Shown here piece after piece: positions 7,301 through 31,400 of a stretch of DNA of 64,000 bases (its first letter is position 1; every line of letters starts with the position of its first letter). The translations under genes and the position numbers were made by a program. Under the pieces are notes generated by a model. The model worked only from the letters and a program-made list of their open reading frames with translations. It did no database searches and was not told the DNA's origin. The DNA comes from a virus: positions 1-64,000 of IMG/VR virus record IMGVR_UViG_3300035698_006183. One strand, given 5' to 3'.

Positions 7301-8512
7301 TCATCATCAGCTCAGGGTGCTGATAGTTCTATCCCTCAACCCACTCCGATAACATTGCCAGCAGTGAAGATAAAAGGTGCTAGTGTATTCCCAATACATT
7401 CCCCTCAGAATTTCAAATTGAGTGGGACAAATGGGACTATAACATTCCCACTCAGTGAGAAAATGCCAGTAGATCAGTTTTGGAAGATTGTTTCCAAAAA
7501 CCTGGCTGCTGCTGTCCAAAAACAAATCAATACCTGGGTGAAAACCTGGAGACAGTCCGTATTACAAGGAGCCGAAGCAACTCAAGAAAATACGGTTACA
7601 TTAAATGAGGCACTGAAAGTAACGGCTAATTTCTTCTCAAGCCTCTCTCAAATCTATGGCGCAGCAGGGATTACGAAAATCAGACGAACCAGTGGGAAAA
7701 AGAATAAGAAGATTGCTGTGAGTAGCCCTGTCTTCCCCGTATCTGATGCCCGTGGGTATGAGATTGTAGGGTCTTATCGTTATGGCCGAGGTGTGGACAT
7801 TGATGAGAATGGAGTGTTTTCACAATTGGTTATGGAAGGTCCCTTGCAAAGTTTGGATATAGCAAGTGTGGATATCTTCGTCAATGGCATCATGCGGAAT
7901 AAAGCAACTGTAGGGTATGCTCAGATTCAAGGACTGTTACAAAGTCTGGACAAATCCTATCCAGGTCAAATGGCTGCTATCAGGCAGAAAGCAAATAAAC
8001 CTGGTGAAGAAGGAACTCAAACTCAAATGCTGACGGATGGCCTTCGAGCTTGGTATATTAACAGTGTGAAAGATGGTGTGGCTAAAACTAAAATACAACT
8101 GACGAATGCTGCCTACTCTCTGGCTGATTTAACCCCCGACTCTGTAAGGACTTGTCATTGTAAGATGGCTGAGGCTAACATTGTTCTGGAAGGTGCTCAG
8201 GAACGTGAGTTCATCCCAGTGGTGGAAGGATTCATGGAACTACAACAGGGTGACCCAGTAACAGCAGCTTCAGCCAAAGCAGCAGCTGCAGCCGGACAGA
8301 ATTGGATTCTTCATCAGGATGCCCTTCGTGGTGAAGTTAGTGACCGAGACCCTGGAGACATTGTTGGTTCTATTGCTAGTTTGGATGAAACCCTTCAGGC
8401 TGCCTCAGAGGCTACTCAACGGATAGTTAACGATGTAGAAGCAGCTGCAGACGATGTAGTGGAAGCTACTGAAAATGTTGATGATGCCTTTGGCGGGGAT
8501 GGAGAAGTATAA
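4370..8512 (+). CDS. Baseplate hub protein, gp27/gpD-like, with long C-terminal extension
   Basis: The first 560 or so residues of this 1380-aa protein look like a gp27/late-control-D type hub: beta-rich halves and, near residues 344-385, a helix-strand unit (KVCEVSGFEFYQDVDGDF) typical of the family. The hub forms the trimeric ring under the tube and holds the spike encoded next. H22, C26, C39 and C42 (HTPDC then GCARC) look like a zinc-binding knuckle. The rest is unusual: a lysine-rich coiled coil near residues 680-770, beta-rich segments, another helical segment near 1010-1050, and an acidic Ala-rich C-terminal helix. No lysozyme or peptidase catalytic motif was seen. Typical gp27-like hubs are about 350-400 aa, so this is three times longer. 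Its stop overlaps the spike start by 1 nt, which fits co-assembly. Confidence 0.66.
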   Translation: MGIENRPYVGTWKLNRQQIVQHTPDCLVYLNGDISLPGCARCNSKINIQEFVTEVSVDAGTDPGATSASFTLSVPVHHHESFARDAQFILRPGLEVHIYQRGYFPVEGMYQDTDDDNMPAYPYYHVFHGVVTQVGGAYSSGVQTFSVQCGSMLHFWQFQQVSTNASIFGQRPENSHNKISTVGHNYTGQHPYEIVWHIHNDFISAAAGVGFALSSQTNIAAMFGDKTLYSLAAKYWEERFKTSTIRLRMHGATGQLFNAAQAAFLGRASSKELLKLTKSRFNQSNTGAKGNPEVWSDARIRGSWTPETLDALLYMDRASAGSKPVDLNIVDMQAFISDIGMFGQFNEFEATYESKMDIVNKVCEVSGFEFYQDVDGDFVFKPPFYNLDTSGSRTYCIEDIDIINISFDEKEPEVTYMTAKSGQIKNVTSTGAENEYGVRGQHVDYRLVAQYGWRPGEFETAYFNDKDAMQHAAANQMDIMNAPSKSASVTIPLRPEIRPGYPVYIRYLDCFYYCTSMSHGFMAGGQCTTTLQLVAKRAKFFAPGDVDKPDGGINAIHLDNPSMPPRPLQVEDNMGYPSLMGFPNVVMALDPNRVDPRTILLGGGVFDVSIPGMIPGIIVMALDMKVIRFAGGADMGTLFEMQTGEGTVMKFQYDLDQDLLPPGTHPPVNAEGEFVDLAKGINKYKKRLEAFAIDKVKLEKDLQKALKLQDAASLKYNRIANNSTNKTSRANAWKQVVATQKKVAVARNNLAQSMVAFESNLSNMKDTEPLKVLYTIVLNLMSTKDGSRKDVNSTNFILGVLADKKATRTNGTMSGSYRYYSSSHPSPQHQGMGKLTINVTDEDKSHTVVDAPLENGQIDGEGFLPGGSQTPLNKGVDSKFGTIPVTKGITVLTGHPDKKGGVVVPTSEIREMMFSPVDYNLGSVKTTTVDTPNPGALGAKFFSNLSKSAIVQGASQSATNTLEEAFGAWVAELNYNISSSAQGADSSIPQPTPITLPAVKIKGASVFPIHSPQNFKLSGTNGTITFPLSEKMPVDQFWKIVSKNLAAAVQKQINTWVKTWRQSVLQGAEATQENTVTLNEALKVTANFFSSLSQIYGAAGITKIRRTSGKKNKKIAVSSPVFPVSDARGYEIVGSYRYGRGVDIDENGVFSQLVMEGPLQSLDIASVDIFVNGIMRNKATVGYAQIQGLLQSLDKSYPGQMAAIRQKANKPGEEGTQTQMLTDGLRAWYINSVKDGVAKTKIQLTNAAYSLADLTPDSVRTCHCKMAEANIVLEGAQEREFIPVVEGFMELQQGDPVTAASAKAAAAAGQNWILHQDALRGEVSDRDPGDIVGSIASLDETLQAASEATQRIVNDVEAAADDVVEATENVDDAFGGDGEV

Positions 8513-10965
8513 TGGCAATGATGATCAATCCTCAATCTGGTTTGAACGGGAGTGGGACTGTACCGTGGGGACAGCTTAAATCTTCCACAGCCTATGCGGC
8601 CAAACGTAAACATGACATGAACCCCGACAATAACTGGGGTCTGGGTACGGCACGAGTAACGAACGTCAACTATGTGGAGATGTTCGTTACCCTCCGAACA
8701 TTATCTGGTTCTTCTGATACTTTCGATAGAGTCCCCGTTCCTTTGACATTCCCGGGGGCAGGTTCTCGTCATTTCTTCGGTGCTATGCCAGAAGTCGGGG
8801 ATATCTGTGTCGTCGGTTGGATGCCTCCCGAGAGCATGTCTTCCAATTCTACCAACACTCGAACACCAGTCATCATGTCGTGGTTGATACCAGGTGTGTG
8901 GCCTGGTCAAGATTGGGTGACAACATCTGACTTTGACCCTGATGAGTATGACATCAATAACCCGAAGGACCAGCAGGCTCTCCGTGGAATTTATTCACAG
9001 ACTCGGCATAAACTTCGGCATATCCAACCTGGTAATGTAGTAGCTTCTTCCTCTCAAGGTTCTGACATGGTTCTGGATGAGGGTGTTACTCTGGCCAACC
9101 GTCGGGGTAATGAAATCCGATTACGCGACCAGGACCAGGCTTTGGTAACTCGAAGTCTTCAACAGTTCCATGCAATGGCTGGTACTCGAATCTATGCTGG
9201 TATGGTTCAGCGTGATGCTCGATTACTGCCTGCCATGTGTGTATCTGATGGCCGTGAGTGGGATAATAAAACCCAGGCTTTGGCAGGAGTGGTTATTGAT
9301 GACGCTCAACTTCCTGCTGACCCCCAAGCTGAGGAAGGGTTCTATACTCCTTCCAAACTGTTTCAACGACGACAATTGGCCAATGACGAAGGTGATTTAG
9401 CTGGACAGCCTTTCCCTATATCTTCTTATTTGGACCCTTACAAATTCCTCCAGAGAGGTGGATTAGTTGATGATGCTGGGTATGTCCTCGATGCCAATCA
9501 CATCCCTTCTGTTAGTGATGCAGTGTACGGCGGAAAACCTTTCTTCCGAGTAGCTAACCAAGGTCTTCAGAATGCTGTACTGGAACCTGACACCCCAACT
9601 CTGACAGAATACCGTATTGAGCTGGCTCATACATCTGATGGCCGTTTACCTGTCACTGAACAGACCGACATGTTCGATGCTGAACGGTTACTAGAGACTA
9701 ACCCTGATATTCCAGGCTCAGCTTCCACAAACACACCATTTATTGAATGGGTTATGGGTTCGGTAGTTGGTAATGATCCTTACACAGCTAAGGGCCGAGA
9801 AGGATACGGCCTGCCCGTAGTTCCTATCATTTTTGATGGTGACACTCCTGCTCCCAGATTGGAACCAGCCAAGATTACAGATGTGAGTGACGGTAGTATC
9901 CCGACTCCCATGAAAGACCAGGCAGCCATGCTTTTCCGTATGGCTCCCCCGACTGCTGAACCAGCAGCCCCTACTTTCTGGTCAGTTAATAAACAAGGGC
10001 AGTATCGAGGATACATCGGTGGTAACACTAAAGAAGATTCGATTCATTTATATGCTCAAGGAAACATTAAAATCGGCACTGGTGGGAAATTAGACCTCCA
10101 GTTACAGGATGGGATAAATCTCAGTGCTCTAGGGAAGAATGATTTTAATCTGAACTCTCCTGAAGGAGCCGTGGTAATTTACGGTGGTGGCCCAATCAAG
10201 ACGGCTGAAACCACAGTAGAACGGGCATCAGGCACGGGTGGTGGTGAAGGTGATGTGCCTGCCGTGGACATTGGTGCTAAGACTAACATCAGATTGATGG
10301 CTGAGAAGAAAATCCTTCTGAAAAGTAACAACCATGAAACTCAGGCTACTAATGTGAAATTAACTGGCCATGAGAAAATCGAAATCAATGGTACGAAGTC
10401 CATCAGTGAAACAACTGAGAATTATCAATTGGCCGTCAGTGCTCAGGCTTCCGAGTCTTACAGTGGCCCGAAGTATTTACTGCCGACCAATTTCCCGTTA
10501 CATGAACGAGTATATACAAGTTCCTATCCTGGATTCACAGGAGAGAAAGTCTCCTACCAGATGTGTGACCGAGAAGAAGAGTTCAAGATTCTTGGTAGCC
10601 ATTCTACAACTATGCAGATTGGTGACATGACTTATGAGACAAGGCTGGGTAAATGGTCAGCCAAAGCTCTGGCAAACAGCCTGGAGGTGGATTCTTCCTC
10701 TGGTATTACTGGTAAAGCTGCAATAGGAAACGTAGCTTTGAAGGCATTAGTGGGAACAGCTACAGTTTCAGGAATGGCCACAGCCACGTTAGAAGCAACG
10801 GCTGGCATAGCCACTGTTCGGGGAGGTGTTAGTGTGATACTAGGAGCTCCGATTACAGGTCCTGATTCAGGTCCTATTATTTGTGCAGGTTCTTTAGAAC
10901 CTTTTACTAATCTTCCCTATGCTACTTGGGGTATGGGTGCAAAAATGCATATTGTGTCAGCCTAA
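8512..10965 (+). CDS. Baseplate spike / puncturing protein, gp5/VgrG-like
   Basis: This 817-aa protein has an N-terminal beta-barrel region (about residues 45-150) with the MPEVGDICVVGWMPP segment characteristic of the OB-fold of gp5, gpV and VgrG spikes. A middle region (about 150-490) is mixed and unassigned. From about residue 500 the sequence becomes short repeating strands such as IKIGTGGKLDLQLQDG, and near residues 725-785 Gly/Ala-spaced repeats (VSGMATATLEATAGIATVRGG), as in the trimeric beta-helix needle of spikes. It would pierce the host outer membrane on sheath contraction. It overlaps the hub gene by TAATG and the next gene by the same arrangement. No lysozyme domain is visible between the OB-fold and the needle, unlike T4 gp5. 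The family call is good; the middle domain is unknown. Confidence 0.72.
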   Translation: MAMMINPQSGLNGSGTVPWGQLKSSTAYAAKRKHDMNPDNNWGLGTARVTNVNYVEMFVTLRTLSGSSDTFDRVPVPLTFPGAGSRHFFGAMPEVGDICVVGWMPPESMSSNSTNTRTPVIMSWLIPGVWPGQDWVTTSDFDPDEYDINNPKDQQALRGIYSQTRHKLRHIQPGNVVASSSQGSDMVLDEGVTLANRRGNEIRLRDQDQALVTRSLQQFHAMAGTRIYAGMVQRDARLLPAMCVSDGREWDNKTQALAGVVIDDAQLPADPQAEEGFYTPSKLFQRRQLANDEGDLAGQPFPISSYLDPYKFLQRGGLVDDAGYVLDANHIPSVSDAVYGGKPFFRVANQGLQNAVLEPDTPTLTEYRIELAHTSDGRLPVTEQTDMFDAERLLETNPDIPGSASTNTPFIEWVMGSVVGNDPYTAKGREGYGLPVVPIIFDGDTPAPRLEPAKITDVSDGSIPTPMKDQAAMLFRMAPPTAEPAAPTFWSVNKQGQYRGYIGGNTKEDSIHLYAQGNIKIGTGGKLDLQLQDGINLSALGKNDFNLNSPEGAVVIYGGGPIKTAETTVERASGTGGGEGDVPAVDIGAKTNIRLMAEKKILLKSNNHETQATNVKLTGHEKIEINGTKSISETTENYQLAVSAQASESYSGPKYLLPTNFPLHERVYTSSYPGFTGEKVSYQMCDREEEFKILGSHSTTMQIGDMTYETRLGKWSAKALANSLEVDSSSGITGKAAIGNVALKALVGTATVSGMATATLEATAGIATVRGGVSVILGAPITGPDSGPIICAGSLEPFTNLPYATWGMGAKMHIVSA

Positions 10966-11567
10966 TGGCAATTAACCAGGGTATAATATATCAGGCTTTG
11001 AAATCGAATCAGGCTTCAGGTGGTCTGCCTATGAATGGGCCTGCTTTTGATAGCCTGGCTTTAGGTATTGCAAATTCTGTAACTTCCTGGGCTGTAGGAC
11101 AGCCACAGAATTTAGGTTTAGTTGGTGCTGCTACCGGAACACTTGGGGCAGGAGTAATAAATCCTGTTACTACTAAATTGGTTGTTCCTATAGTTGTGCC
11201 AGTAATGTTAGGGTCTTTGGTTGCAGCAGGTATGGTTGGTCCCTTGACTCAACCTCTGTCTGTGGTAGTGGCTATGGGTATTTCACAAGCCTTTACAAGT
11301 GCTGGTCAATATACTGGTGTCTGTGCGGGTGTTGGAGTTGGTGCTGATATTTCTAAGATTGTAATTTCCAACCCCTCTACACTAATAACATTGTTAATGA
11401 CGAATTTGTCTGCTGTTTCAGGAGCAGGGTCATCTTTAACAACAATGGCAACAGGCTTAGGAAATGGTATAGCTGCTTTGTTATTATTAGGAGCAGGTAC
11501 AGGGTCTGTAACGGGAATCCCAGCCCCTCTTCCGGGTGCTGGTGTTTCAAACTCTACGGTGGTATAG
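10965..11567 (+). CDS. Nearly uncharged hydrophobic Gly/Ala-rich protein after the spike, unknown function
   Basis: The ATG at 10965 overlaps the spike stop by 1 nt and matches the local coupling pattern, so it is preferred over an in-frame ATG at 10926 that lies inside the spike gene. The 200-aa product contains only three Lys, two Asp and no Arg or Glu. It is made of Gly, Ala, Val, Leu, Thr and Ser, with several long hydrophobic stretches (for example LVVPIVVPVMLGSLVAAGMV near residues 70-90) and short prolines that break them. There is no classical signal peptide. In contractile tails the place after the spike can hold a tip (PAAR) protein, but this one is longer and lacks the usual PAAR metal ligands. 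A membrane-inserting or tip-associated virion protein is an inference from composition and position only. I do not recognise the family. Confidence 0.72.
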   Translation: MAINQGIIYQALKSNQASGGLPMNGPAFDSLALGIANSVTSWAVGQPQNLGLVGAATGTLGAGVINPVTTKLVVPIVVPVMLGSLVAAGMVGPLTQPLSVVVAMGISQAFTSAGQYTGVCAGVGVGADISKIVISNPSTLITLLMTNLSAVSGAGSSLTTMATGLGNGIAALLLLGAGTGSVTGIPAPLPGAGVSNSTVV

Positions 11568-14500
11568 ATGAGCTTTCAATTTGACGGAAAAGTATTAGAG
11601 GGTGTTCGACAATCTCCAGTGAATGCCCCTACGACAGATGAACCTGGTACTAGTGTGGTTCGTGACATTCGAGCACTCCCTGCCAATTACACCTTGGGTT
11701 CTCCTGACTTGGTGAGTGCTCCGACAGACCAGTATCGTGTCGCTGCTCTGGATGCCCCAGGTTCCTCAATTGTGGAATATTTGGTTTGGGCTCAGAACTC
11801 AGCTCAGTTGGCCACAGTAGATGATACCGATTGGTGGACGACAGAGGGTTTAGGGAATATACCTATTGGTGCTTTGGATGTTATTGCTTACCCTGGTCCG
11901 GACCAGGAACTTTTCACTGATGGAACGGCCAATGTTGTCGTCGTAGATAATGGTGACCGTTCTATAGGTACAATTTCATGGCTGGTCGTAGCCCGTGGTG
12001 ACGTTGAGTATGACGATGATGGTTGGGATGATGTTGATAACCCCGCAGCAGGCAGGGAAGGTAATCTTCCTTACCTTGCATTTGAAATTTTACCTGAGAA
12101 CCAGAACCCTGTTTCAGGAGTCGTGACATTAACCGATGCCCAGTTAGCCTTGCTCGATGGAGGTCTATCCATTGAACGTGGTGACAGAGTTATCCAACCT
12201 CGATACACAGCGGCTACCCCACGGTTCTGGTGGACTCGTAATGATAGATATGAGAAAAGATTCGGATGGAATGCAGCACTTCAGCGGTGGGAACCCTGGA
12301 AAGGTTCAGGAGTTAAGAACCTGGGATATCTCCTGCTGGACGAGGCTTCATTCACAATGGACCCTAAACTTCAGAATTTCCCTGTCGGGTCTTTTTTGCC
12401 GGGTGATGCTTCAGAGCCAGATGCTTATTCAATGATTCGACTGGGGTCTGACCCTGGTATAAATAGTGTTCCGGCAGGCCCTGGAAATGGATTCCTCGGG
12501 ATTCAAGTGAAACCTGATGATGTTGTAGAGGATTTCGATTTCAGCACTGCCTCTGATTTAATTGGTGTTATGGGACAGACCAACGGAAAACTGGTATTCA
12601 ACCCAGCCTATGTAAACACACAAGCTGGTAAATCAGTTTGGTATTCATACAAGGGATTTTCTGAGGATGAGGATGGAATGATTGGAAGCATTCAAGATGC
12701 TTTGACCTCTGAGCTGTTTCTTGCACCTCTCCCTGGACCGACCGATTCCATTTTACTTCGGTATGGAAACAGAAGCTATCTGGATACCGTGACTTTTGCC
12801 AATGATGCAGCCTTGCAAGCCGAGGTTGCTGACCCCGCTGAAGGTCAAGTGTATCTCTCGTTATCTACTGGCCGTCTGAGATTAAGTCCTGTGGATATGG
12901 GTAAAGCTGACCCTGATAGCCCAGCAACATTCTCCAAGTATTACCTGGGAGCTGATGTGATTTATGATGGAGTAGCTCTCTGTCAACGTCCTCAGCCGAC
13001 CCGTTCTCCTGTTCGGTTATTGGTTGACGGTGATGACTTATTCCTCCCTGAAGCTGAGTATCTTCCAGATGCTTACAACGATACGGACTGGAATAATGCT
13101 TACCGAGGACTCGGAACTTCAGGTATTCTGAATGTCCCTGATGAGACAGGTGCTTTACCTTTGGATATAGGGGTTGTTCCTGTACGCCCTGGTGGAGATA
13201 ACTCAGCTACTGACTCGAATGTTGGGATGGTACGTGCTTTGACAGATGGGGTGAGTGACCTCATTATCTTCGGGCGTAACCATGCTATCACAGCTACCCG
13301 TCCCTATAGGATTCCTGATGATAAGCCCAGCCACATACGTGGTGGAAATGCTTACGTCTGCCTTCAACTTGAAAGTGGTGACCCGGGTTCCCGAGTGGAG
13401 ATGGGACGGTACGACCGACAGAAACTGGATGGGGATTACATTTACTTCCTTCAGGCTGCTTTGGTGCCTGCTACATTTACAACAGAAGCTAAACTCTACT
13501 CCCGTAACAGAGACATCTTCCGTTTCGATGGGGGTGAGATCCTCTATTTTGCTGTGGATGGGACTTCTTATGAGTGGGATTCTAGTGACTTGCTGACAGG
13601 CTTCCCTGACCAGGCTTCATTCACAACAGAGGAAGTGGCTGACAGCATCTCTATTGACTCCGTCCCCCTTCTTCCAGCCGGAGCTATCACAGCTCACCTT
13701 GGCCGAATCCTTATTACAGGGACAGCCTCCGTAGAGATTGGTTTTGGTGGAGCAGGTAAAGACCTGAGTGGTGCAGCAGTTCTGGGATTCCTTCCAGGAT
13801 GGCGGGCAACTGAGGGTGAACCTTGCTGGTTGCCTGATTCTGGTGTGAGTGTGGGATTGTTCCGTAGCCCTGTAAACCTGGATAGGTCGAAGGCCACTAC
13901 TGATTTTGCATACGTTGATAGAATCCGAGAGGGCCTGCTGAGTGAAAGTCTTCAGCCGAACCCATTCTTCTTTTTCCTGAACCCTCCCTTGCAGGATGTC
14001 GCTGGATATAATGAGAACTTCTTCTTCCAGTTGGTGAACTACATCATTGATGGGGATGACATTCAGATAATCTACAAGAACCTGGAGCATTACAAAGACA
14101 TCATCTATCGTTTTGGCCAGAATAAGTTTGACTGGGTGGGTGAAGGTTCTTACCGAGAGCCCGTTGAACGTGCTCTGGATACTTTAGATTTGGGAGCTGC
14201 TGGTATTGTCCCGGAGTCCATGATGGGTGCTCCTGGAATTCCAGGTGCCCTTTATGTGAACACTGGTGAAGGTGGTTTGGTTCTTCAAGACCAGGATGAT
14301 GATTACATCCTCCCGTTCGATGGTTCCCCTGGAAATGCAACTCTTATACATCGGTTCGGAAGACGGATATCTTTCGGAGCTCAGGGAGAGTTCGTTGAGG
14401 ATTCAACTACATTCACTGACACGAGCCTGACTACCGATTTCAATGACCTGGACAGCCCAGTGTTGCCTGGTTACCGTTTGAAATTAACGACAGGTGATGC

Positions 14501-17500
14501 AGAAGGTTCCTATACCGTTGAGAGTGTGGACTCTGATAACACTCTTACCGTGTCACCAGCATTCCTCTGGACTTCTGAACTTCCCGTAACATGGGAATTG
14601 TTTGAAGGTTACTCCAGAGATGTGTATGACCCGATGATTGTAGCTGACATGCTGTACAAAGAATTCAGCCCGTTGTCAGAAGAACCGTTCAAAGTTCGGG
14701 TTTTGTCATATCTCGGCCTCGTTCCCGAAGATTCTTCGGTACAGGATACTGGCCGATTGGTTGCCAATGTTGAAGGAGCCTTGTCTAGTGATCGTCCAAT
14801 CAACCTCCGATACAAACCTGAACCTCTGACCGCGGAGAACACTGTTAGTTTAACCTGGCTGACAAAATTAGATATTGGAGTTATCGAGAATGGTGCCAGA
14901 GTCATTTCTGGTGTGACAGACCTCCGATTCACATCTGAGGCTTTCAGCATTCAGATTGGGACGGTTGTTTACAGTCATGGTGACTCAACATACCTCTTAG
15001 AGGGTGTAACGTCCTTCAGCAGCGACCCTGGAGCTTCTGTGGAGTATTTGACAGTAGACACAGACCCAGAATTCCCGAAAGGGATGTTGAAGTTTGGTTC
15101 CAGTGTTCTGGCCACTTATGCTGAGAGTCATGTACTGGTGAAAGACGAGTTCCTCGATCCATCTGATATGGAAGAACTCCAGGCAGAATTGAGTCCGTGG
15201 ACAGGTGAGGTTAACCTCTCTGACACCGATATGGTGGCATTTACTGGAGAACGTGCTTATTTTGTCGAGCAGATGGATACTAAGAAAGATTTATCGGTCC
15301 AACCTATGAGTGGAAGCTGTGCTTTCCTCCGACCTCTCCCGAAGGGTGTGTTGGTCGAGATGGAGTATTACGGAGCAGACCTCGAAGGCCGGAAGTTACA
15401 ATATCCTGTGCTTTCCCTGGACGGGGAACCGACAGGGCTGACAGAAACTCGTCAGATTACAGAATTTTTACCTGTGTTCATCCGAGATGAAGTTGCAGTC
15501 CGTGAAAGCAACCGAGTTTTCACATTCAACATTGATCAGAACACAGTCTATGAGGACATTGACCCGATTATTTACATTCGGGCAGCTCAACAGAACTATA
15601 ATGAAACGAACTGTGTGGTTAATTATCTTCCTGATGGCCGTGGCCAACTTACCTTCATCACGTATGACGTGACGGAGGGGGTAGATGTGAAAATCACATA
15701 TGCTGTTGCTGAGTCCCAAGGTGGAGAGCGGGCATATGAAACCAGCACGAAACCAGTCTATCGTCCTCCATTCTACATCACTGCCAATCAGAACCGGTTC
15801 GGTATTCGTGGTGATAGAGCAGATGAGTTCGTAGCTGGCCAGTTGCTTCGGTTCGGAAAAGAGAATTTCTACGTCAAAGGTGCCAAATATTACGAAGCAG
15901 GCACAGATAACGAGGGGAATGAAACTGGGGACATCACCGCTGTTTATATCTTCCCACAGACGACTCAGGAAGTCGGTACCCGAGCACCAGCTCGAGACAT
16001 CCTGGCTCTCCAGACTCAGATGCCTATCACTCCAGTAGTAGACCCCAAAGGAAATGTGATTGGGCCAGATGGAACAGCTCATGAGGTAAACACCTCGGCT
16101 TCCCCTGGTCTGATGTATGAGTTGGACCTCACAGAATTCCCGTTTGAGCCTATGAATCGTGGGCAGACAGACATCGTGTTCACTGGCAACCTGCTATTCT
16201 TGGCTGTGCCTGGTCACATCATCGAATTCGGTGGTGTTCCTTACACTATTGCTAGAGCAGCATTGTCTGATGATGGTTCACGTTCAGTGGTTTCGATTGC
16301 TTCTGGTATCCGCCAGGCATTTGAAATGGCTGACGAGCCAACTGTACGGCTCACTTACCGTCCTGTGTATCCTCCTAACGTGACGGATTTACTAGGGGTT
16401 GGAGCTTTTGTACCTGAAGAAGGTTACGAATTGGTGCAGTATGGACTGATGGATGGTGACAATGAACTCCCAGGTAAAACCCTGGTGAACACCGTTGACT
16501 ATACATTTGATTTAGGGTCTGGTAAAGTCACTCTCTTGGAACCGATTCAGGAACCATTGAATGCTCCTGAATCTCTGGCCATGTCCTTTGTGAGACTCCG
16601 ACAACTGGCTCCTTACATGGAGAACGGGGCTATCGTCCGACCGACATATTCGGCCAGTTATCTGAACTCTATCACCCCGAGCAAAGAGAATGATTTGTTG
16701 GGTGCTACTCTCCGTGGAACATACACGTTCAGAAGCCCTGACACTTTCTATTTCCGTATCGTTCCTATGTCACAGTTCCTGGTGGAAGTCACAACGGAAG
16801 TCATCGAGGAAATCTCCAGTCAGCAACCTGCCAGTGGAGCACCGAAGCCTTCAGGTGGACAAGATAACTGGGACTTTGGCCGAACTGGTCTGAAGACTGA
16901 ACGACGACACCTGACTAATAAAGACAGGGTAGCCCGAACCTTCATGGATTTCTACAATGTGGCCACTAATTCTTTTGAGCAGGTACTGGAAAGTATCACC
17001 GGTGATATCGTGGGTGATAGGGATGGTAAGTTTAAGTTCTGGATTGGCCGTGGTAAAGAATGGCCTACCCCAGGATATGAAGATGAAATCACAGGGGACT
17101 TGACCCCTCGGAATGTTTGGACAGATGTTTTCTCTTCTGCTGCATCAGGGTATGTTTACGTTCAACCTTTTGATAAACTAGTAAATCCTCTGAAAACCTT
17201 CTACATTGAGGACTCCAAACTTCATGGTGATGTTCCTGACATCGATACTCTGAACTTGATGATGGATAGTCAGAAAGATATTGTTACCAATGAAGTGGAC
17301 GATATTGTCCTGACAAATTTCTGGGCGGGTTTCAAACGTAAATCAGGATGGCCCTTCTATTATTTCATCCTGAATGGCCAGTTCAATTGGATGTACCAGA
17401 ACCACAAGTTCTCCCGTATATTCCCTCGATGGACGAAGACATTCCTTCGTACCAATCCAGGTATCGAATCTAATTTAGATGCTGGGGAACCAGGTTGGTA

Positions 17501-20500
17501 TTCAGCAGGCCGTTATGATTCCGAAGATGCCTACCGCCGAACAACTCAGATGACCATCGGGCAGGTAGCCAATCCCGTACTGGGGGACATCGGTGAAATC
17601 CGTTCATTGTTCCTGAATAAGAGGATGGCAAGAGCCAGAATCTGGCAGTATTACCCGTATGGTATCCCTGAAGGTTCCTTCGGGCTGGTCAGTGGAAGTC
17701 CCTCTCCAGCTATCGAAGTACCGTGTGTAATTGCAACCCAGGGATGGCTTCGAGAATTTCCGATAGACCCTGAAACAGGTTATCCTGATAAGTCTCAATT
17801 CCTTAATAATAACGGGGAGTTCCCTGATTTAGATACAGGTGACCCAGAGATGGCAGTTCCTCCATTCATTATTGGAGAGCAGCTTGGTTGGGGGAAACCT
17901 AATGGTCGGATAGCTGAGGCTTACTGTGGTTCGTTAACCAAAGAGTCAGGAAGCGTTATTAACGCTCTGACAGGTTTGTTCGTCAATGAAATCCTGTACA
18001 GTTGTGTTCTCACATTCCAGGATGCTAATGGTGACCTCATTGAAGACCCGAACAACGTGCTGGTTGGAACTTCTCCGACTACTGGTGTTGTAGCTGAGGG
18101 TTATCTGGAACAGGGTGACACAGTTCAGTCAGTGCCAATTTCGGGTACTGCCGATATAAGTAATCCTCCGACGACTGAGGATATGGAACTGCTGGCCAAT
18201 AACTCCAGTACTTACCGTGCAGGTTTTGATATCCAACATGCTCAAGATGGGCAGTTACTGGATGTCACATTACCTTCAAAAGATGACCCTGCATTCTGGG
18301 CTTTAAAAGAAATCGTTGGCCAGAACCCTCCACCACCTCTAACGTGTTTGGAAGGGTCTGTAGAATTCTACTATGAGGGTCAGAACCCTCTCTTAATCCC
18401 TGCTTTGGAAGGATTACCCCAGGATGATGCGGGTGATTACCATGTACCGTTCCTACGGGTGACCAACACAGAGCTGGATAGATTCAATGAAGGGATTATC
18501 CTGGCAGATATCCTGAAAGTAGATAGCCATGTGCCATTAGCTTGGGGTGTTTACCCTGATGAATGGTTAGGGAATGACGGGTGTGTGATGACAATCCCCT
18601 CTGACCCAGCTCAATCTGCTTTCATTCCGTTGACTGAGCCTGCATCTTTGTTGACGGCCACAGACGTGCAGCCTAAAGCAACAGTGTCCTCGGAAGAACC
18701 TGGGACAGCCGACTTGGATGAATATGATTTACTGTTCACTCAGGTTGAAGCTACTAGCCCATTTGTCCAGTCGAGTCTTTTGACAGAGGGGCCGATGGGA
18801 ATTCAATCCGTTGGCCGTATCCGTAATAGAGACGGGGCTTGGAATTTAGGAACTGGTGACCCGACGAGTGGCTGGGGTTCAATCATTGAACCTCCACGGT
18901 TTATCACTCAGACTAAACAGGGTTCACCGATTCGATATAAAATTGAAAATGCAATGGTGAGTGAAGCTCCTTCTGGCCAGTTCTATGGAGTGAAGCTCCG
19001 TACTTATGATGTCACAGGATACATAGTGTTGGACTTCACAGGTATGAACATTGATATGAGTGGGCTGGATGCCATATATGCAGCATCCCCTGACAATTAC
19101 ATCAGTATTAAGCTCATCTCACATGATGATGGAGATGCTATCATCGGTCCGGGTGGAATACCTGCCCCACCATTTGGTTCTGAATTACTGGCTTTGGATA
19201 TTCAGCAAAGCACCGGTCTGAGAGTCACAAATTACACAGCAGCCTCACTCCTGATGCCTACTCTGACGAACGCTCAGTTTGGGGTAGATGGTGCAGTAAT
19301 TGCGGCACTTCCAGGTATGGACCCAGCAGACTACCTTGCAGGCAACACCCGATACATCCTGCTGACATGTACAAGCCTTACTCCTGCTGTGATGGATTTG
19401 ATTTGGGATTTGCCGAATCCTCCAGTAGCACCTTTGGCTCACCCTGGTTGGTTTATTCCTTACGAAGTGAGAGATTTTGGAGGAAGCCTTTACACCTCCG
19501 CAGACTACGGCATGGACTTCGTGTTTGATATTGACACATACAACATTCCGAGTTCTCTGGGTGAATCCACGACAGCTTATATTAGTTCTGACCGATTGAC
19601 GTTCAATGAAAACATTGATTTCGATTTGGCTCGTGAACGTGGAGCAGTTCATGCTTTGAACCCCGCAACTGAATTGGAAACACGACTGGCCATTTACGAA
19701 GTGACCGTAGGGCATGATTCAGTGCTCCCGACTTATGCTTCAACCATCAATACGTTCTGTAATGGGGAGAGTGCAGGCCAGCCAGTACCATTTACATTCC
19801 TCCCACGAGGCGGAGTGGTTGCTACCTCTGGTTCTCTGGTTGTGCATGGATTCGAAGGTTATGAGAACACTCCTATCCTCGGCAATGAAGCTACGTTCTC
19901 AGGAGCTGCTTCAAACGACCAGACCACGGTGCCAAGTTATGGCAGTATCTGTAAAGGGACTGGGGTGATGGAGAGTAAATTCGACTCGGGTTTAACCCCC
20001 TTGGATGCAACACTCTATGATAACCGAGTAGCTTCAACCATTATCACAGACCCAACAGCTCCACTTGATGGGATGGCTCAGATTGAATCTGGGGATATCC
20101 TGGTCATTAAACAAGACCCGAATGGGGAGGCAACTACCAAAGCTGGAACGTATCTGGTTCGACATTCTATCCCACAACATGACCCTGTAGGTTCTCCTGC
20201 TGAGGAGTGGTGGGAATCAGCTCCTGTTTCTATAGCAGGGAGTGAAAAAGACTGGTGCCCCGTACATTTCCCAACAATCGTCAGTTATGATGAAGGAACT
20301 CGTGAGTTAGTCCTCACCGACCCGGCTTGGATACGAGCAATTGAAGCAGGCAACACTGTGGCTGGTTATCCTATAGGATGGGAGTCTGGTTTCCCTGACC
20401 CTATAGCAGGTACCACATTTATTTACATCATCCGTAATGTGGATGCTTTGGCCACCGTAGACCCTGGTGGGACTCCTGAAGAATATGATGTTGCAGCTAC

Positions 20501-23201
20501 AACATACAAAGAATCTATCATACGGCTCAAGTATACAGCTCTGGCCATTGATGGTGTCACTGGTGAATGTACTTTAACACTTCCTCCTGTAGCTACATCC
20601 ACGGAAGCTGCCTATGCCGGCGGTAAGATAGTAGCAGTACCTGGTGACTCTGATTATGCAGTTATAACAACAGAAGCTGAAAGAACAGCTCTCCTTGATG
20701 ATTCTTATCAGGTGTCTGGGATGAAAGCCTGGCCAGTTAATGTTTCTGGTGAGAAGGACGGCTTGCCTATAAATAATGTGGTTGGTTATGATGACCCTGC
20801 TGCTCCAGGTGTAACAGCTAATGGTTTCTTACATCTGAACATTGATAGTCGATTAACTGATACGACAGCCCAGCAGTATGGGATTGCCGACTTCATCAAC
20901 ACCCCAACAGGTTTTGCACCCGGACTCATTTACCCAGCAGTTTACGAACCTATGGCCAGTAATGATTTCTATGACGATAGAGAAACACCTGTTTATAATT
21001 TTGTGGTAGGTGTTCTCATCAATAGCATTTTAGATGCAGATTGGGAAACAGCAGACCTTCCTACCACTTCTATGGGGAATTCAGTAGCTTGGGATTATTT
21101 TGCCAATTGCCTGCTACCTTCGTCTCATCTGACCTTGGGTGTTCCTACTGTAGTTCCTACAACTCCTGGACATTTAGCTTTTTCAGGTGTTTACTTGGAG
21201 CCTTCTGTTCCTCGATCAGCTTTGGGTTTGATTGAAGACCATCCGAGAGTGGTTGATTCCAATCAGATTCTCCCTGACCCACAACCTTTGGCAGACCCCG
21301 ATAGAGAGATTGGTGCAAGAAGCTCTGATTCCTACGGGGACTTTGCGGGAACACCTCCTGTTCACACAACACCGTCGGCAGTGGAGTTTGAAGTTCGACG
21401 GATACGTCGTTTCCATAATATCCAGGATGTCAACCTGAAGCTGACACCTCTCCGATTCGTTTACGAAATACGACGTGGCAGGATTACAGACTATACCAGT
21501 GACCCCCTGACAACAGGGCAACGGGGAATCGTGGAAGCTATTGATTTCACAATGGATTACGACCCAACTCCTCATGTCTCAGGCCAACCGAAAACTCCAG
21601 ATGTTTGGAACGATGGGATGGAATATACCGGTACAAACCTCGGACCTTACCTGACTGCATACTTGACTCCGAATGAAGATGTCAATGTTAATGCTGGAGA
21701 TATGTTCCGTCTTCTGGATGAGGACGGAGAGGTACTAGAAGAAGCTCGTATCGAACGTATCGTAGGTGCAGGAACCATTCAGTTGGCTGCCCCCGGATTG
21801 GTGACAAAAACACCAACTGAGTTAACAGATGATGGTGGGATGAGATTTGAAATCTATCTGAACAAAGCTCCCGTTCCTATCGAACAGTCTGTGGAAGAAC
21901 TATTTGAATTGGTTGTAGATAAGGAAGTCCTTCGGACAGATGCTACCTGGGGAGATATAAACACTGATGAAAAAGGTGGGTATGTTCCCGAGTCCACAGG
22001 AGATTGGGATGCTGATGCCAACAAACTGTATGATGACCTCAATGTAGATGGTGGCAGTAGTGCTGCAACTTTCGGGAACTTAGGTGTTCGTAAAGGGGAC
22101 ATTGTAATTGTAGACCCGTTAGGGAAAGTTCCTCAGAGGTCGGGAAGCCCAGCCATCCAGGAACGTGGTATGCGTCCCATTGGAGATATGGGTGTAGATG
22201 GCCGAGTAGGTTGGAAAGATGGGGCACCAATTACTGACCCTCCAACTTCCCAGTACATTGCAGGGAACCCTGACTCTCGTGATGATAACCGTGGTTACTA
22301 CAGAGTTACTGGTATAGACGACTCAGGAGCTGACCCATTCCTTGAACTGACAGGGATTTCAACATTCTCAGGAGCCAGAGATGAGGATGTGGTGTTTGAC
22401 TCTACGGATACGGAACGGGCTTATGCTATTTACCCGACCGTGCATCAGTCACCAATAACTTCGAACCTTGCTGAAGGGCAGATGGATTTACGTCCGACTA
22501 AGAAACGGGTGGGTGATAAGTTCAACTACCCGCTGAACTTCAATTCTATCCGACCCTTCTCGTACCGAGTTATTCGGCCTTCTAAATTGTTCTCTGACGA
22601 AACCATTGATTTGGTTCTGATGATGAGGGAACGGCTCTTGTCTCTCATTGAACTGATTGGACGAGGATTCGAAGGTAAAAGTGGGGATTACTGGACGTTC
22701 CAGAAGTTTAACCACATCGAGGACTTGGGTTCAGTTACAAATGCTGAGGATGGCATGGGCTTGTTATCAAATGCCTTCTTGCTGTCCGTTCTGGGTAGAA
22801 CTGACGTGTCCCCATTCTTGAACAATGCTTCATGTCTCTCAATCCTGGACCGTAGGTTCTGGGTGATGGACACCAGGTTAGATTCATTGGCTCCGGCCCG
22901 TGCTATAGATAACAATCCTTTCGGGATGAGACAGGTTGAAGCTGGAGTTGACCAGCCTTATACTGCCTATAATGACAGTACAGGAGAGGGTGTTCGTCCA
23001 GTGCTTCCAGATAGGATAGACGATGCTCTTGACCAACGTGACAGATTCCGACCGATTCGGTATGTGTGGTTGGCTTATAGAACTCACAAACTTCTGGGTT
23101 CCTTGGCTGCTATCAGACGGTTTGACACAGAATATGTCGAGCGTCGTTCCCAGCAGCTTCAACTTCTCTTGAAGCAGGAGTCCTTGGAGAAAATAACATG
23201 A
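11568..23201 (+). CDS. Giant 3877-aa virion protein, probable baseplate/adhesion scaffold
   Basis: One uninterrupted frame of 3877 codons starts directly after the previous stop (TAGATG). Most of it is acidic, Asp/Gly/Pro/Thr-rich and beta-strand-like, with no signal peptide. Recognisable repeating units are of the type G-x-x-L-x-[IL]-x-x-G...G-x-Y-x-V, for example near residue 967 (GYRLKLTTGDAEGSYTVESV) and near 2841. A segment near residues 1700-1730 (GATLRGTYTFRSPDTFYFRI) precedes a more aromatic, mixed region to about 2040. The last 240 residues are helical and charged (RERLLSLIELIGRGFEGKSG, then ERRSQQLQLLLKQESLEK). The stop overlaps a small coiled-coil gene. Its place between spike and wedge genes makes a baseplate role likely, perhaps a structural belt or long appendage. 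No enzyme motif was found. I cannot assign it to a named family. Confidence 0.8.
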   Translation: MSFQFDGKVLEGVRQSPVNAPTTDEPGTSVVRDIRALPANYTLGSPDLVSAPTDQYRVAALDAPGSSIVEYLVWAQNSAQLATVDDTDWWTTEGLGNIPIGALDVIAYPGPDQELFTDGTANVVVVDNGDRSIGTISWLVVARGDVEYDDDGWDDVDNPAAGREGNLPYLAFEILPENQNPVSGVVTLTDAQLALLDGGLSIERGDRVIQPRYTAATPRFWWTRNDRYEKRFGWNAALQRWEPWKGSGVKNLGYLLLDEASFTMDPKLQNFPVGSFLPGDASEPDAYSMIRLGSDPGINSVPAGPGNGFLGIQVKPDDVVEDFDFSTASDLIGVMGQTNGKLVFNPAYVNTQAGKSVWYSYKGFSEDEDGMIGSIQDALTSELFLAPLPGPTDSILLRYGNRSYLDTVTFANDAALQAEVADPAEGQVYLSLSTGRLRLSPVDMGKADPDSPATFSKYYLGADVIYDGVALCQRPQPTRSPVRLLVDGDDLFLPEAEYLPDAYNDTDWNNAYRGLGTSGILNVPDETGALPLDIGVVPVRPGGDNSATDSNVGMVRALTDGVSDLIIFGRNHAITATRPYRIPDDKPSHIRGGNAYVCLQLESGDPGSRVEMGRYDRQKLDGDYIYFLQAALVPATFTTEAKLYSRNRDIFRFDGGEILYFAVDGTSYEWDSSDLLTGFPDQASFTTEEVADSISIDSVPLLPAGAITAHLGRILITGTASVEIGFGGAGKDLSGAAVLGFLPGWRATEGEPCWLPDSGVSVGLFRSPVNLDRSKATTDFAYVDRIREGLLSESLQPNPFFFFLNPPLQDVAGYNENFFFQLVNYIIDGDDIQIIYKNLEHYKDIIYRFGQNKFDWVGEGSYREPVERALDTLDLGAAGIVPESMMGAPGIPGALYVNTGEGGLVLQDQDDDYILPFDGSPGNATLIHRFGRRISFGAQGEFVEDSTTFTDTSLTTDFNDLDSPVLPGYRLKLTTGDAEGSYTVESVDSDNTLTVSPAFLWTSELPVTWELFEGYSRDVYDPMIVADMLYKEFSPLSEEPFKVRVLSYLGLVPEDSSVQDTGRLVANVEGALSSDRPINLRYKPEPLTAENTVSLTWLTKLDIGVIENGARVISGVTDLRFTSEAFSIQIGTVVYSHGDSTYLLEGVTSFSSDPGASVEYLTVDTDPEFPKGMLKFGSSVLATYAESHVLVKDEFLDPSDMEELQAELSPWTGEVNLSDTDMVAFTGERAYFVEQMDTKKDLSVQPMSGSCAFLRPLPKGVLVEMEYYGADLEGRKLQYPVLSLDGEPTGLTETRQITEFLPVFIRDEVAVRESNRVFTFNIDQNTVYEDIDPIIYIRAAQQNYNETNCVVNYLPDGRGQLTFITYDVTEGVDVKITYAVAESQGGERAYETSTKPVYRPPFYITANQNRFGIRGDRADEFVAGQLLRFGKENFYVKGAKYYEAGTDNEGNETGDITAVYIFPQTTQEVGTRAPARDILALQTQMPITPVVDPKGNVIGPDGTAHEVNTSASPGLMYELDLTEFPFEPMNRGQTDIVFTGNLLFLAVPGHIIEFGGVPYTIARAALSDDGSRSVVSIASGIRQAFEMADEPTVRLTYRPVYPPNVTDLLGVGAFVPEEGYELVQYGLMDGDNELPGKTLVNTVDYTFDLGSGKVTLLEPIQEPLNAPESLAMSFVRLRQLAPYMENGAIVRPTYSASYLNSITPSKENDLLGATLRGTYTFRSPDTFYFRIVPMSQFLVEVTTEVIEEISSQQPASGAPKPSGGQDNWDFGRTGLKTERRHLTNKDRVARTFMDFYNVATNSFEQVLESITGDIVGDRDGKFKFWIGRGKEWPTPGYEDEITGDLTPRNVWTDVFSSAASGYVYVQPFDKLVNPLKTFYIEDSKLHGDVPDIDTLNLMMDSQKDIVTNEVDDIVLTNFWAGFKRKSGWPFYYFILNGQFNWMYQNHKFSRIFPRWTKTFLRTNPGIESNLDAGEPGWYSAGRYDSEDAYRRTTQMTIGQVANPVLGDIGEIRSLFLNKRMARARIWQYYPYGIPEGSFGLVSGSPSPAIEVPCVIATQGWLREFPIDPETGYPDKSQFLNNNGEFPDLDTGDPEMAVPPFIIGEQLGWGKPNGRIAEAYCGSLTKESGSVINALTGLFVNEILYSCVLTFQDANGDLIEDPNNVLVGTSPTTGVVAEGYLEQGDTVQSVPISGTADISNPPTTEDMELLANNSSTYRAGFDIQHAQDGQLLDVTLPSKDDPAFWALKEIVGQNPPPPLTCLEGSVEFYYEGQNPLLIPALEGLPQDDAGDYHVPFLRVTNTELDRFNEGIILADILKVDSHVPLAWGVYPDEWLGNDGCVMTIPSDPAQSAFIPLTEPASLLTATDVQPKATVSSEEPGTADLDEYDLLFTQVEATSPFVQSSLLTEGPMGIQSVGRIRNRDGAWNLGTGDPTSGWGSIIEPPRFITQTKQGSPIRYKIENAMVSEAPSGQFYGVKLRTYDVTGYIVLDFTGMNIDMSGLDAIYAASPDNYISIKLISHDDGDAIIGPGGIPAPPFGSELLALDIQQSTGLRVTNYTAASLLMPTLTNAQFGVDGAVIAALPGMDPADYLAGNTRYILLTCTSLTPAVMDLIWDLPNPPVAPLAHPGWFIPYEVRDFGGSLYTSADYGMDFVFDIDTYNIPSSLGESTTAYISSDRLTFNENIDFDLARERGAVHALNPATELETRLAIYEVTVGHDSVLPTYASTINTFCNGESAGQPVPFTFLPRGGVVATSGSLVVHGFEGYENTPILGNEATFSGAASNDQTTVPSYGSICKGTGVMESKFDSGLTPLDATLYDNRVASTIITDPTAPLDGMAQIESGDILVIKQDPNGEATTKAGTYLVRHSIPQHDPVGSPAEEWWESAPVSIAGSEKDWCPVHFPTIVSYDEGTRELVLTDPAWIRAIEAGNTVAGYPIGWESGFPDPIAGTTFIYIIRNVDALATVDPGGTPEEYDVAATTYKESIIRLKYTALAIDGVTGECTLTLPPVATSTEAAYAGGKIVAVPGDSDYAVITTEAERTALLDDSYQVSGMKAWPVNVSGEKDGLPINNVVGYDDPAAPGVTANGFLHLNIDSRLTDTTAQQYGIADFINTPTGFAPGLIYPAVYEPMASNDFYDDRETPVYNFVVGVLINSILDADWETADLPTTSMGNSVAWDYFANCLLPSSHLTLGVPTVVPTTPGHLAFSGVYLEPSVPRSALGLIEDHPRVVDSNQILPDPQPLADPDREIGARSSDSYGDFAGTPPVHTTPSAVEFEVRRIRRFHNIQDVNLKLTPLRFVYEIRRGRITDYTSDPLTTGQRGIVEAIDFTMDYDPTPHVSGQPKTPDVWNDGMEYTGTNLGPYLTAYLTPNEDVNVNAGDMFRLLDEDGEVLEEARIERIVGAGTIQLAAPGLVTKTPTELTDDGGMRFEIYLNKAPVPIEQSVEELFELVVDKEVLRTDATWGDINTDEKGGYVPESTGDWDADANKLYDDLNVDGGSSAATFGNLGVRKGDIVIVDPLGKVPQRSGSPAIQERGMRPIGDMGVDGRVGWKDGAPITDPPTSQYIAGNPDSRDDNRGYYRVTGIDDSGADPFLELTGISTFSGARDEDVVFDSTDTERAYAIYPTVHQSPITSNLAEGQMDLRPTKKRVGDKFNYPLNFNSIRPFSYRVIRPSKLFSDETIDLVLMMRERLLSLIELIGRGFEGKSGDYWTFQKFNHIEDLGSVTNAEDGMGLLSNAFLLSVLGRTDVSPFLNNASCLSILDRRFWVMDTRLDSLAPARAIDNNPFGMRQVEAGVDQPYTAYNDSTGEGVRPVLPDRIDDALDQRDRFRPIRYVWLAYRTHKLLGSLAAIRRFDTEYVERRSQQLQLLLKQESLEKIT

Positions 23202-27291: not shown

Positions 27292-28470
27292 ATGTCAAGA
27301 GAATTTCAAATAGCATGGCCATGTGACCACCGAACAATCGAAGAAGGAGTTCTTCTTGGTGATGACCGGCGTTCATTGCTTACCAGACAACCTATAGCGG
27401 GGTCTAAGACCGTCCGAGTGATGGTTAATGATGAGCTGTTTGTTCCGCTCGGTGGTTTGTATTCTCCTGCCCAACTTTACGGTTCTACTTCTGGTCCCTT
27501 CGACCTGACTGAAGGGGATGACACTCTGATAGTTGAAACCTCAGCAGGAACTTCAACTGTTTCTTTTGGAGTTACGGGTATTACTCGGCTGACTACAGAC
27601 CAGGTTATCCAGGAACTCCAAAGACAGCAATTCAATAGTGCCGTGGCTGAGAATATTAACGGCCACCTGGTCTTTTCTGACGGTTTAGTCGTCGGCCCTG
27701 ACTCCTATGTAAAAGTTAGAGGTAAAGCTGCGGAATCCCTTGGTTTCGGTTCGGCAGAATGCAACAAAGGGGCCTCGAATCAACGTGGTGCCAGAGGGTT
27801 GCAGTTGTATCCGAGCTGGAATCTTTCAACTCGTCCTGACGATTTAGTAAACCGTTTCCCAGTATTTGATTACCCTGTGAGGGGAAATCCTCTGTTCAAG
27901 GTATCCTACACGGTTATCCCAGAGAGATGCCTTCGATGTGGTGGTTCTTACGTGGAAAACGATTATAGATATGGGATTGATGGCCAGTCAATCATGATTG
28001 AAAACGAGAACTTACTGTACCAGGCGTGTTTGAAGATGCTCCTGACTGATATAGGTAGTAATCCTTATCATACGTGGTATGGAACCAAGATTATGAGCCG
28101 AATTGGAACGAAGGCCGTGTCTGGGGTGTCTATGTTGATTAGTGAAGATGTTCGGAATGCTCTGGCTCGTTACCAGTCCCAGCAGGTAGAGCAGGGGAAA
28201 TACCAACCCGTGTCTCTGAAAGAACAGCTTTATTCGATTTTGAATGTCCAGGTTGTCCCTCATAAGCAGGACCAGACGACGTTCCTGATTGATGTGACAG
28301 TTCGGAGTGCCTCGGGCGACCCTGTAACTTTGAGCATTGTATTTACGGCTCCTTCGGCAGTGGCTTTGATGGGGTCCAATGGACTCATGCTGGGAACCGA
28401 ATCAGTAGGGTTGGGTGATGATAGAGTGTTTCCTAATCAACTGAACCTTAACGGTGTTCCTACGGAGTGA
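27292..28470 (+). CDS. Baseplate wedge protein, gp25-like, with N-terminal adhesin-type domain
   Basis: The C-terminal half (about residues 230-375) resembles the gp25 family of baseplate wedge proteins: a helix with ENENLLYQACLKMLLTD, then NPYHTWYGTKIMSRIG, a long helix, LYSILNVQV and ending beta strands. gp25 proteins start sheath assembly on the baseplate. Ahead of this, residues 65-160 contain a beta module with GPFDLTEGDDTLIVET, TTDQVIQEL and AAESLGFG, like modules in flagellar hook-associated and phage adhesin proteins. A CLRC motif near residues 212-216 may bind metal with other ligands. Usual gp25 is about 130 aa, so this 392-aa protein is a three-part extension. The ribosome site is AGGAGG. 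The order gp25-like, J-like, I-like is the classic wedge operon, which supports the call. Confidence 0.7.
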   Translation: MSREFQIAWPCDHRTIEEGVLLGDDRRSLLTRQPIAGSKTVRVMVNDELFVPLGGLYSPAQLYGSTSGPFDLTEGDDTLIVETSAGTSTVSFGVTGITRLTTDQVIQELQRQQFNSAVAENINGHLVFSDGLVVGPDSYVKVRGKAAESLGFGSAECNKGASNQRGARGLQLYPSWNLSTRPDDLVNRFPVFDYPVRGNPLFKVSYTVIPERCLRCGGSYVENDYRYGIDGQSIMIENENLLYQACLKMLLTDIGSNPYHTWYGTKIMSRIGTKAVSGVSMLISEDVRNALARYQSQQVEQGKYQPVSLKEQLYSILNVQVVPHKQDQTTFLIDVTVRSASGDPVTLSIVFTAPSAVALMGSNGLMLGTESVGLGDDRVFPNQLNLNGVPTE

Positions 28471-28474
28471 TAAT

Positions 28475-31400
28475 ATGACGACAGAAGATACAAGAACACC
28501 TAAATTTTATGGACCTGACAACGTACTCCGCTCGGAATATATATTTTCGACGGACTTATCGTTTCGTGTATTCAATGGGACTGTTGATGCAGACACTGTA
28601 GATGTGCAAGTTTCTCTGAGAAACGGAGCCTTCTCGTCTGACCCGGACTTGATTTCATTTGAGGGAACAACTTTCACAGTCCCGAACTCCGCAGCATTTC
28701 CTGACGGCTTACAGCTTCTTCCGGGGGAAAACATTATTTCTGTTCGGGCAGTTATGTCCAATGGTGATACCTCTCCAATAGGAACCATCCAGGCAAATCT
28801 TTCCTTGGAACGAGATGTCAAGGCTGGAGTCATTGCTCCCAGTGGTATCTATGTAGAACGTCTGGATAACAAAGTTCAAGTTTACGTGGATGGCCTTGAA
28901 GATGCCAACGTCACAGGTTACCAGTTCTATGCTTCAATAGAAGCTGGAGGTGGTGCCACAGGATACAAACGGATTTCAATAGGCCCTGTGATTTCTGGGG
29001 AAGTCTATGAGAAAATCACCCCTCTTGGGGAATTGGACATGGATGCTAACGTGGTCCGGACCGATGATGGCAGTCTGGCTTCCGAACCTCAATACATTCA
29101 TATGCTCAGCACTCAGGAAGACCGAACTGGAGTAGTTTTCCAGACTGATTTGAACCAACGTATCAGTATATCTGATACCACCACTCAATTCCGAGCCAAC
29201 ATCGTACTCGATGGAGTGCAGGAGTTGAATAGATTCTCGTTCATTCATAACCGTAAAGCTACGGCCAGCCTAACAGAAGCATACCCAGCAGTCCCACACT
29301 CAGAATTCTCAGCCATGCTGGACACAGACCCTCTATATTATGTGGTGACCGCACTGTATATAATTGACGGGAAAGAGTACGAATCTTCTTACTCTCCTGA
29401 AGTCGGGGCAACCCCAATCATCGTGTCGCCTCTGGTATCGGCATTACCAACAGTATCCAGGCAGCAGATTGTCAAAGACGTGTCCTTGTCCATTTTCAGG
29501 TCACACCCTGAGCTGGATATTAAACCAGGCTCAATGATTCGTGATACTTTCGTGGACCCGTTCTCCAGTGAAGCTGAACGTATTCGTTTCATCTTGAACT
29601 TCGTCCAAACTTGCCAGGCATTCTCGACACTGTTAGACGTTGATGACCCGAACAACACAGGTCAATCTATCACGGTGAACAACTCACCGTTCAAATTAGC
29701 TTTGAAGCAGGCTTTCTATCTGCAATCCAATACCGATGTGCAGAATATGATTGACAATGCTTTCGATAAACTGGCCTCTCAGAGAGGAGTCGTCCGAAAC
29801 ATTGGGCGTCGTTCTCGTGGTGAGGTTGTAGCTTACGTTACAACTAAGCCAGTGACTTCAATCTTCATCCCTCTGGGGACAATTGCCTATGCAGGCAGTC
29901 AGCAATTCAGAACAACTTCCAGTGGTTACATCACTTCGACTGGGATTGGGTCTTCATACGACCCAGTTACTGGCCGATACTTCACCAGATTATACGTCCA
30001 GGCTGTGAATCCTGGGGGTGCTGGCAATGTAGCTGGTGGGCAGATTCGTGCATTCCAGAGTGGCCCACAGGGTGTTCTCTGTTATAACGATGTTCCAACC
30101 TATGGTGGACGTGACCTTGAAACTAACCGTCAGTTGGCCACTCGGGCCGACGGAGCATTATCAGGTGTAGATACGGGAACTTACCGTGGATACGTGCAGA
30201 CCACAAATAACATCAGTGGGGTGCAAGAGTCTACCGTGGTAGATGCTGGCCATTCTCTGATGCTTCGAGATATCAACCCTGAAACCAACCAACACACAGG
30301 TGGTAAAGTGGATGTGTGGGTACGGGGTGAAAACCTGGCTTCCATCCAGGATAGCTTTGCATTCTCTTTCGAGATTGTGGACAGTGGCCAGTTTGAACCG
30401 GTTGGTGCCATTCAAGACCTCAAGTTCAGAGCTGTTAATGCCAATCTTTCCATAGATAATCCTATTATGGAGATGTTGGATAACGAAGCCTGGGGCTTCA
30501 TGTTCACGGATGACACAACGGGCAAAGTATTTGATTTGACCGACGTTGAAGTTCTGACGTTTGATACCATACAATTATCCTCTGCTCTCAATGACCCGAC
30601 CAACATTGCCCTGACAGATGTGTTCCGTGGGTCTTACCGTTACCGAACCAGTAACAAGTATGTGTTCCAACGTCAGCCTGTACGGTCAGTGACCAGTTTG
30701 GTCGGGACAACCCAGAATGTGGACGAGGGCTATTTCAAATTGTTTGCAGGCAGCCAGCCTTTAGACCTGGGACGTTCTACTGAGTCCGGGGATTATTTGC
30801 AGGTTGTGCAGCCTGTTGGGGATTACATTCAGATTCCTTCAGGTGAGCCTATTGAAGTGTCGGATGAACGGCATGTGCTTTTGGAAAGTACTGAATACCT
30901 GGATAACTTGGGAATCAATCCCATCACTGTTCGGGTGTACAATGTAGAGAGAACCATCGAATATTACGGCCCATATCATCCTGACGTGGAGCCTGACTTC
31001 ACATTTGTGGATGAAGTAGGGGATTACCCTCTGGGAATTCTGCCCACCTCCCTAAGCCGAATGGTTGAGGGTCAGGAAGTGGCCGTGGATTATAGCCACG
31101 ATGAGAACTTTGTCGTGACCTACCAAGTCAACTCTTTGATTGGGACAACCCAAGAAGATTTAGATGATACTCGGAACATCATGGCCGATGTATTGGCCAA
31201 AGATTCCCTCCCGATTGGTGTAGATATCACAGCTACCATCGTGACCAAGAAGAACAACAGCGTTTATGTAGTGGATAGTGATGTTCGGACGGAATTAGCT
31301 CGGTTGTTTGGGACTTTCAACCTGGGAACTCCTGTACGGCAATCTGACGTACTTGGAGCCCTAGAGCTTGTCGAGGCTGTTTCCTATGTCGTTGTACCTC

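Follow-up and report, generated by a model that had tools for sequence, protein, structure and literature searches.

An almost uncharged, three-repeat protein beside the spike gene of uncultured, often very large phages as a candidate spike-tip cap

The window analysed here is a stretch of 64,000 nucleotides (positions 1 to 64,000 of the IMG/VR virus record IMGVR_UViG_3300035698_006183) and, judged from its sequence matches, holds a contractile-tail baseplate operon. On the + strand, the gene of an 817-aa protein (8512..10965) is followed by the gene of an almost uncharged 200-aa protein, our candidate spike-tip cap (10965..11567), and directly downstream by the gene of a 3877-aa giant protein (11568..23201). 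Further along lie a sheath-initiator-like gene with a weak match (27292-28470, E 0.0075) and a Baseplate_J gene (28454-31993, E 2e-13), while scans of the remaining large genes from position 22 to 33381 returned no convincing family. Pfam gave no direct match for the 817-aa protein. Three of its relatives match DUF2345, the C-terminal region of VgrG, below threshold (E 2e-5, 3e-4, and 6e-3), and a fourth matches a beta-helical trimerisation domain (E 6e-5). Together with the downstream baseplate genes, these signals give moderate support to the label of puncturing spike used in the preliminary description, and we refer to the protein as the spike.

The spike and candidate tip genes meet in a TAATG stop/start overlap (10963..10967, + strand), in which the spike TAA (10963-10965) shares one base with the ATG of the candidate tip gene (10965). 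The translational coupling named in the preliminary description is inferred from this overlap. The same -1 junction occurs in 22 of 57 distinct members of the family described below. At its other end, the candidate tip gene stops with a TAG, and the ATG of the following gene begins at the very next base (11568). No fusion of spike and tip genes was seen in the ORF lists of the loci (a long ORF in locus L043 is out of the spike's frame). Extra genes were observed either between spike and candidate tip or, in the uncultured phage record LR745208, beside the tip gene (L007:5192-6001; L101:2067-2759, - strand), with similar gaps of ~830 bp in L003, L026, and L028. By eye, their motifs (KFGFLTLKG...FLCGCG and paired CxxC) resemble those of HNH/AP2-type homing endonucleases, which suggests that the spike/tip junction may be a recurrent insertion site.

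Translation of 10965-11567 (+) gives a 200-aa product with 3 Lys, 2 Asp, and neither Arg nor Glu, exactly as counted earlier. A longer start is available at a TTG (position 10926), and homologues begin at the position of the ATG at 10965, not at the upstream TTG. The N-terminus (MAINQGIIYQALKSNQ), judged by eye only, lacks a signal peptide, in agreement with the preliminary description. The GRAVY value is 0.85, within a family range of 0.42-1.09. Among the other ORFs of the loci and the window (n=627, each at least 150 aa), the median charged fraction is 21%, and only two fall below 5%, both of them distant members of this very family. The composition of the protein is far from chance.

A first scan found three relatives with 45-54% identity, and a profile scan added more. 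LR745208, a record of 485 kb, holds a remote relative (31% identity, 1.6% charge). As the candidate tip protein is low in complexity, the spike was chosen as the better search handle, and its profile retrieved 80 viral loci and one MAG contig (81 spike loci). Of the 81 loci (metagenomic phage contigs, some of them near-duplicates), 66 encode a family member after the spike, mostly at a distance of a few bases, with an insert of ~830 bp in a few loci. With near-duplicate loci set aside, the 57 distinct members average 196 aa and 4.6% charged residues (range 1.6-10%); the four most remote members reach 4-13%. Since charge rises to 10-13% in some members, the extreme loss of charge is typical of the family rather than essential to it.

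Fifteen spike loci have no neighbouring member. One of these is cut within the spike, and nine others were searched over the whole record: four (375, 312, 297, and 109 kb) encode a member away from the spike, as does LR745208, and the five without a member (41-139 kb) are probably fragments. Counting members away from the spike, each of the six searched records larger than 290 kb holds the family, as does one of 109 kb. A tblastn search of 50,697 phage records matched LR745208 alone, where the low-complexity filter of BLAST may hide such sequence; searches of the phage records with the spike and the giant protein, which are less affected by the filter, also gave only LR745208. A scan of genome contigs yielded no relative with the family query and one MAG contig with the spike query. 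The gene is a member of a previously unnamed protein family spread over uncultured, often very large phages, and the open-access literature that we searched describes no such tip for huge phages. As a side observation, the spike of LR745208 is followed instead by a gene that by eye resembles an N-acetylmuramoyl-L-alanine amidase (L005:14425-15198).

PHROG and Pfam scans of the candidate tip protein and its 52 relatives revealed no credible family. Neither the protein nor its relatives matched PAAR (PF05488), and the protein matched neither Tox-PAAR-like/DUF4150 (PF13665) nor DUF4280 (PF14107). None of the three was found in 12 records; control genomes were detected with the first two profiles, and the DUF4280 search of the records was run without a positive control. 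In the alignment of the 52 members, no column exceeds 10% His or 8% Cys, so that no conserved metal site is apparent. The best hit of a profile search against PDB sequences was a partial match to a CoA-transferase subunit (E 0.0075), which we regard as a chance match because the fold comparison found nothing. The profile and fold searches thus turned up neither an ordinary soluble family nor a PAAR tip, the two identities against which the preliminary description had proposed to check the protein.

Structure prediction of the monomer gave a confident, compact alpha/beta model built of three helix-helix-beta units. AlphaFold2 with 52 relatives reached a pLDDT of 95.1 and a pTM of 0.90, with all five models above 90, and with 9 sequences a pLDDT of 90.8. 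The predicted order of elements, helix-helix-strands, occurs three times: in repeat 1 (aa 1-76; 10965..11192, +) as helices 5-14 and 26-43 and strands 50-73, in repeat 2 (aa 77-135; 11193..11369, +) as helices 78-87 and 95-113 and strands 116-135, and in repeat 3 (aa 136-200; 11370..11564, +) as helices 137-152 and 158-174 and strands 177-199. When the profiles of the three thirds were compared with one another, a threefold sequence repeat gained support: the pairs scored 24.4, 34.1, and 20.8, all in register, the maxima after column shuffling were 13-16, and none of 100 shuffles reached the real score for any repeat pair. The same alignments were recovered from only 9 sequences (P 0.001-0.012). 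The near-invariant positions comprise W42 and, for the most part, strand-region glycines (G54, G58, G61, G63, G118, G126, G178, and G180). The best-conserved charges, K71, D128, and K131, all lie in strand regions; D128 (50 of 52 members) and K131 belong to repeat 2, and K71 and K131 look equivalent between repeats 1 and 2. From the model, the strands would form hairpins and the repeats would be arranged three-fold in space. Foldseek found no match to either model in the PDB (with the 52-relative model, best E 0.36 and TM-scores of at most 0.23 among the matches listed) and none to the earlier 9-sequence model in BFVD, so the fold appears unrepresented there, although Foldseek performs poorly on small proteins made of repeats.

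Three repeats, a trimeric VgrG-like spike as neighbour, and no detected PAAR make a spike cap the most plausible role, and we consider it moderately probable that the protein serves as a structural tip, or cap, on the central spike of a contractile tail, in the manner of PAAR proteins and T4 gp5.4. The tip-protein half of the earlier proposal has hence gained support from the position after the spike, the repeats, and the lack of PAAR and Tox-PAAR-like matches in the 12 records. Like the PAAR-motif tips (PF05488), including T4 gp5.4, it is a small protein whose gene is linked to a trimeric spike, with a three-fold repeat character able to match that spike and a proposed membrane-facing place at the tip. 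Unlike them, it has no PAAR profile match, no conserved metal-binding His or Cys, and no Foldseek match in the PDB, and it consists of ~200 aa with three helix pairs and almost no charge. The candidate would work like PAAR while sitting outside the PAAR family in profile, metal site, and fold. A further parallel is offered by the PIPY (DUF4150, PAAR-like) domains, non-canonical T6SS spike tips that lack PAAR motifs and work with VgrG (PMC11883445), as our candidate would with its VgrG-like spike; by contrast, PF13665 was unmatched in the 12 records and no PIPY motif was seen. Against a cap stand a GRAVY of 0.85, which is more hydrophobic than expected of a soluble cap, and the fact that among the families searched no homologue has a solved structure or known function.

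A further point against the cap leads to its main rival. In records whose spike is encoded elsewhere, the gene of the protein stays beside or close to the giant gene, and the giant protein may thus be its partner: in four such divergent records, the member directly precedes a ~3000-aa giant homologue, followed by homologues of the next two genes of the window, and in LR745208 about 3 kb and a change of strand separate it from the giant gene, with the spike some 240 kb off. The downstream linkage thus outlasts the linkage to the spike, which is the main reason to keep in play an adaptor or attachment protein whose three repeats would link the giant protein (~3000-3900 aa; perhaps a trimeric adhesin or fibre) with the spike or baseplate. 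The 3877-aa protein has no Pfam, PHROG, or PDB match and its homologues in the lineage measure about 2900-3600 aa; the homologue in locus L001 ends in a Gly_rich_2 domain, which we take to be associated with tail fibres, and this also favours an adaptor. In most loci, however, the spike is equally close, often with a one-base overlap, and we hold the adaptor reading to be doubtful, if the most serious of the alternatives.

The preliminary description had also suggested a virion protein that is delivered together with the spike and inserts into the membrane, forms a pore, or plugs the lumen. The very low charge and the GRAVY value speak for this, as do a 19-residue Kyte-Doolittle window above 1.6 in 72% of members and a favourable Wimley-White octanol window in all of them. 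The confident model, however, is compact alpha/beta with long strands and helices of 10-19 residues; the windows of highest hydrophobicity (72-91) take in the end of a strand, then a loop and a 10-residue helix, instead of forming one continuous transmembrane helix, and some members are, as noted, far from chargeless. The likeness to phage holins extends to small size and hydrophobicity, while the predicted mixed fold contains no transmembrane helices of the holin kind, the gene lies in a tail operon, and one of 52 members gave a weak holin match (E 0.012). This half of the proposal is consequently unsupported, and we judge it unlikely. Still less likely is a non-virion assembly factor, e.g., a chaperone for the spike or giant protein, as the gene's place between the two and the dedicated chaperones that T6SS spike-tip complexes can require (PMC11883445) might suggest, since an almost uncharged, Gly-rich protein with long beta strands and three repeats is, in our judgement, unlike typical chaperones.

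As a spike cap, the protein would act through its repeats, which would give one monomer an approximate three-fold symmetry, so that its three beta-hairpins could cap or continue the C-terminus of the trimeric spike, and the three helix pairs would form the leading body of the tip. On sheath contraction, the candidate tip would touch the outer membrane ahead of every other part, and a composition almost free of charge and rich in Gly and Ala would make its entry into lipid less costly. That the protein touches the spike and forms part of the virion, and that its low charge has this role, we infer. Conceivably, though we think it rather improbable, the family represents a new class of spike tip (metal-free, nearly uncharged, three-repeat, with a fold absent from the PDB) that, once puncture has occurred, passes into the host outer membrane or remains there, thereby freeing the tube lumen, and that takes the place of PAAR across a widespread lineage of huge, uncultured phages.

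Little is yet understood of how a contractile spike gets through the outer membrane and of the later fate of its tip. In huge phages with no detectable PAAR, a conserved tip candidate that is near-chargeless and lacks any metal site would amount to a natural experiment on the requirements of a membrane-piercing tip. The profile, for a gene family that Pfam and PHROGs lack, is also of use in recognising this phage lineage in metagenomes.
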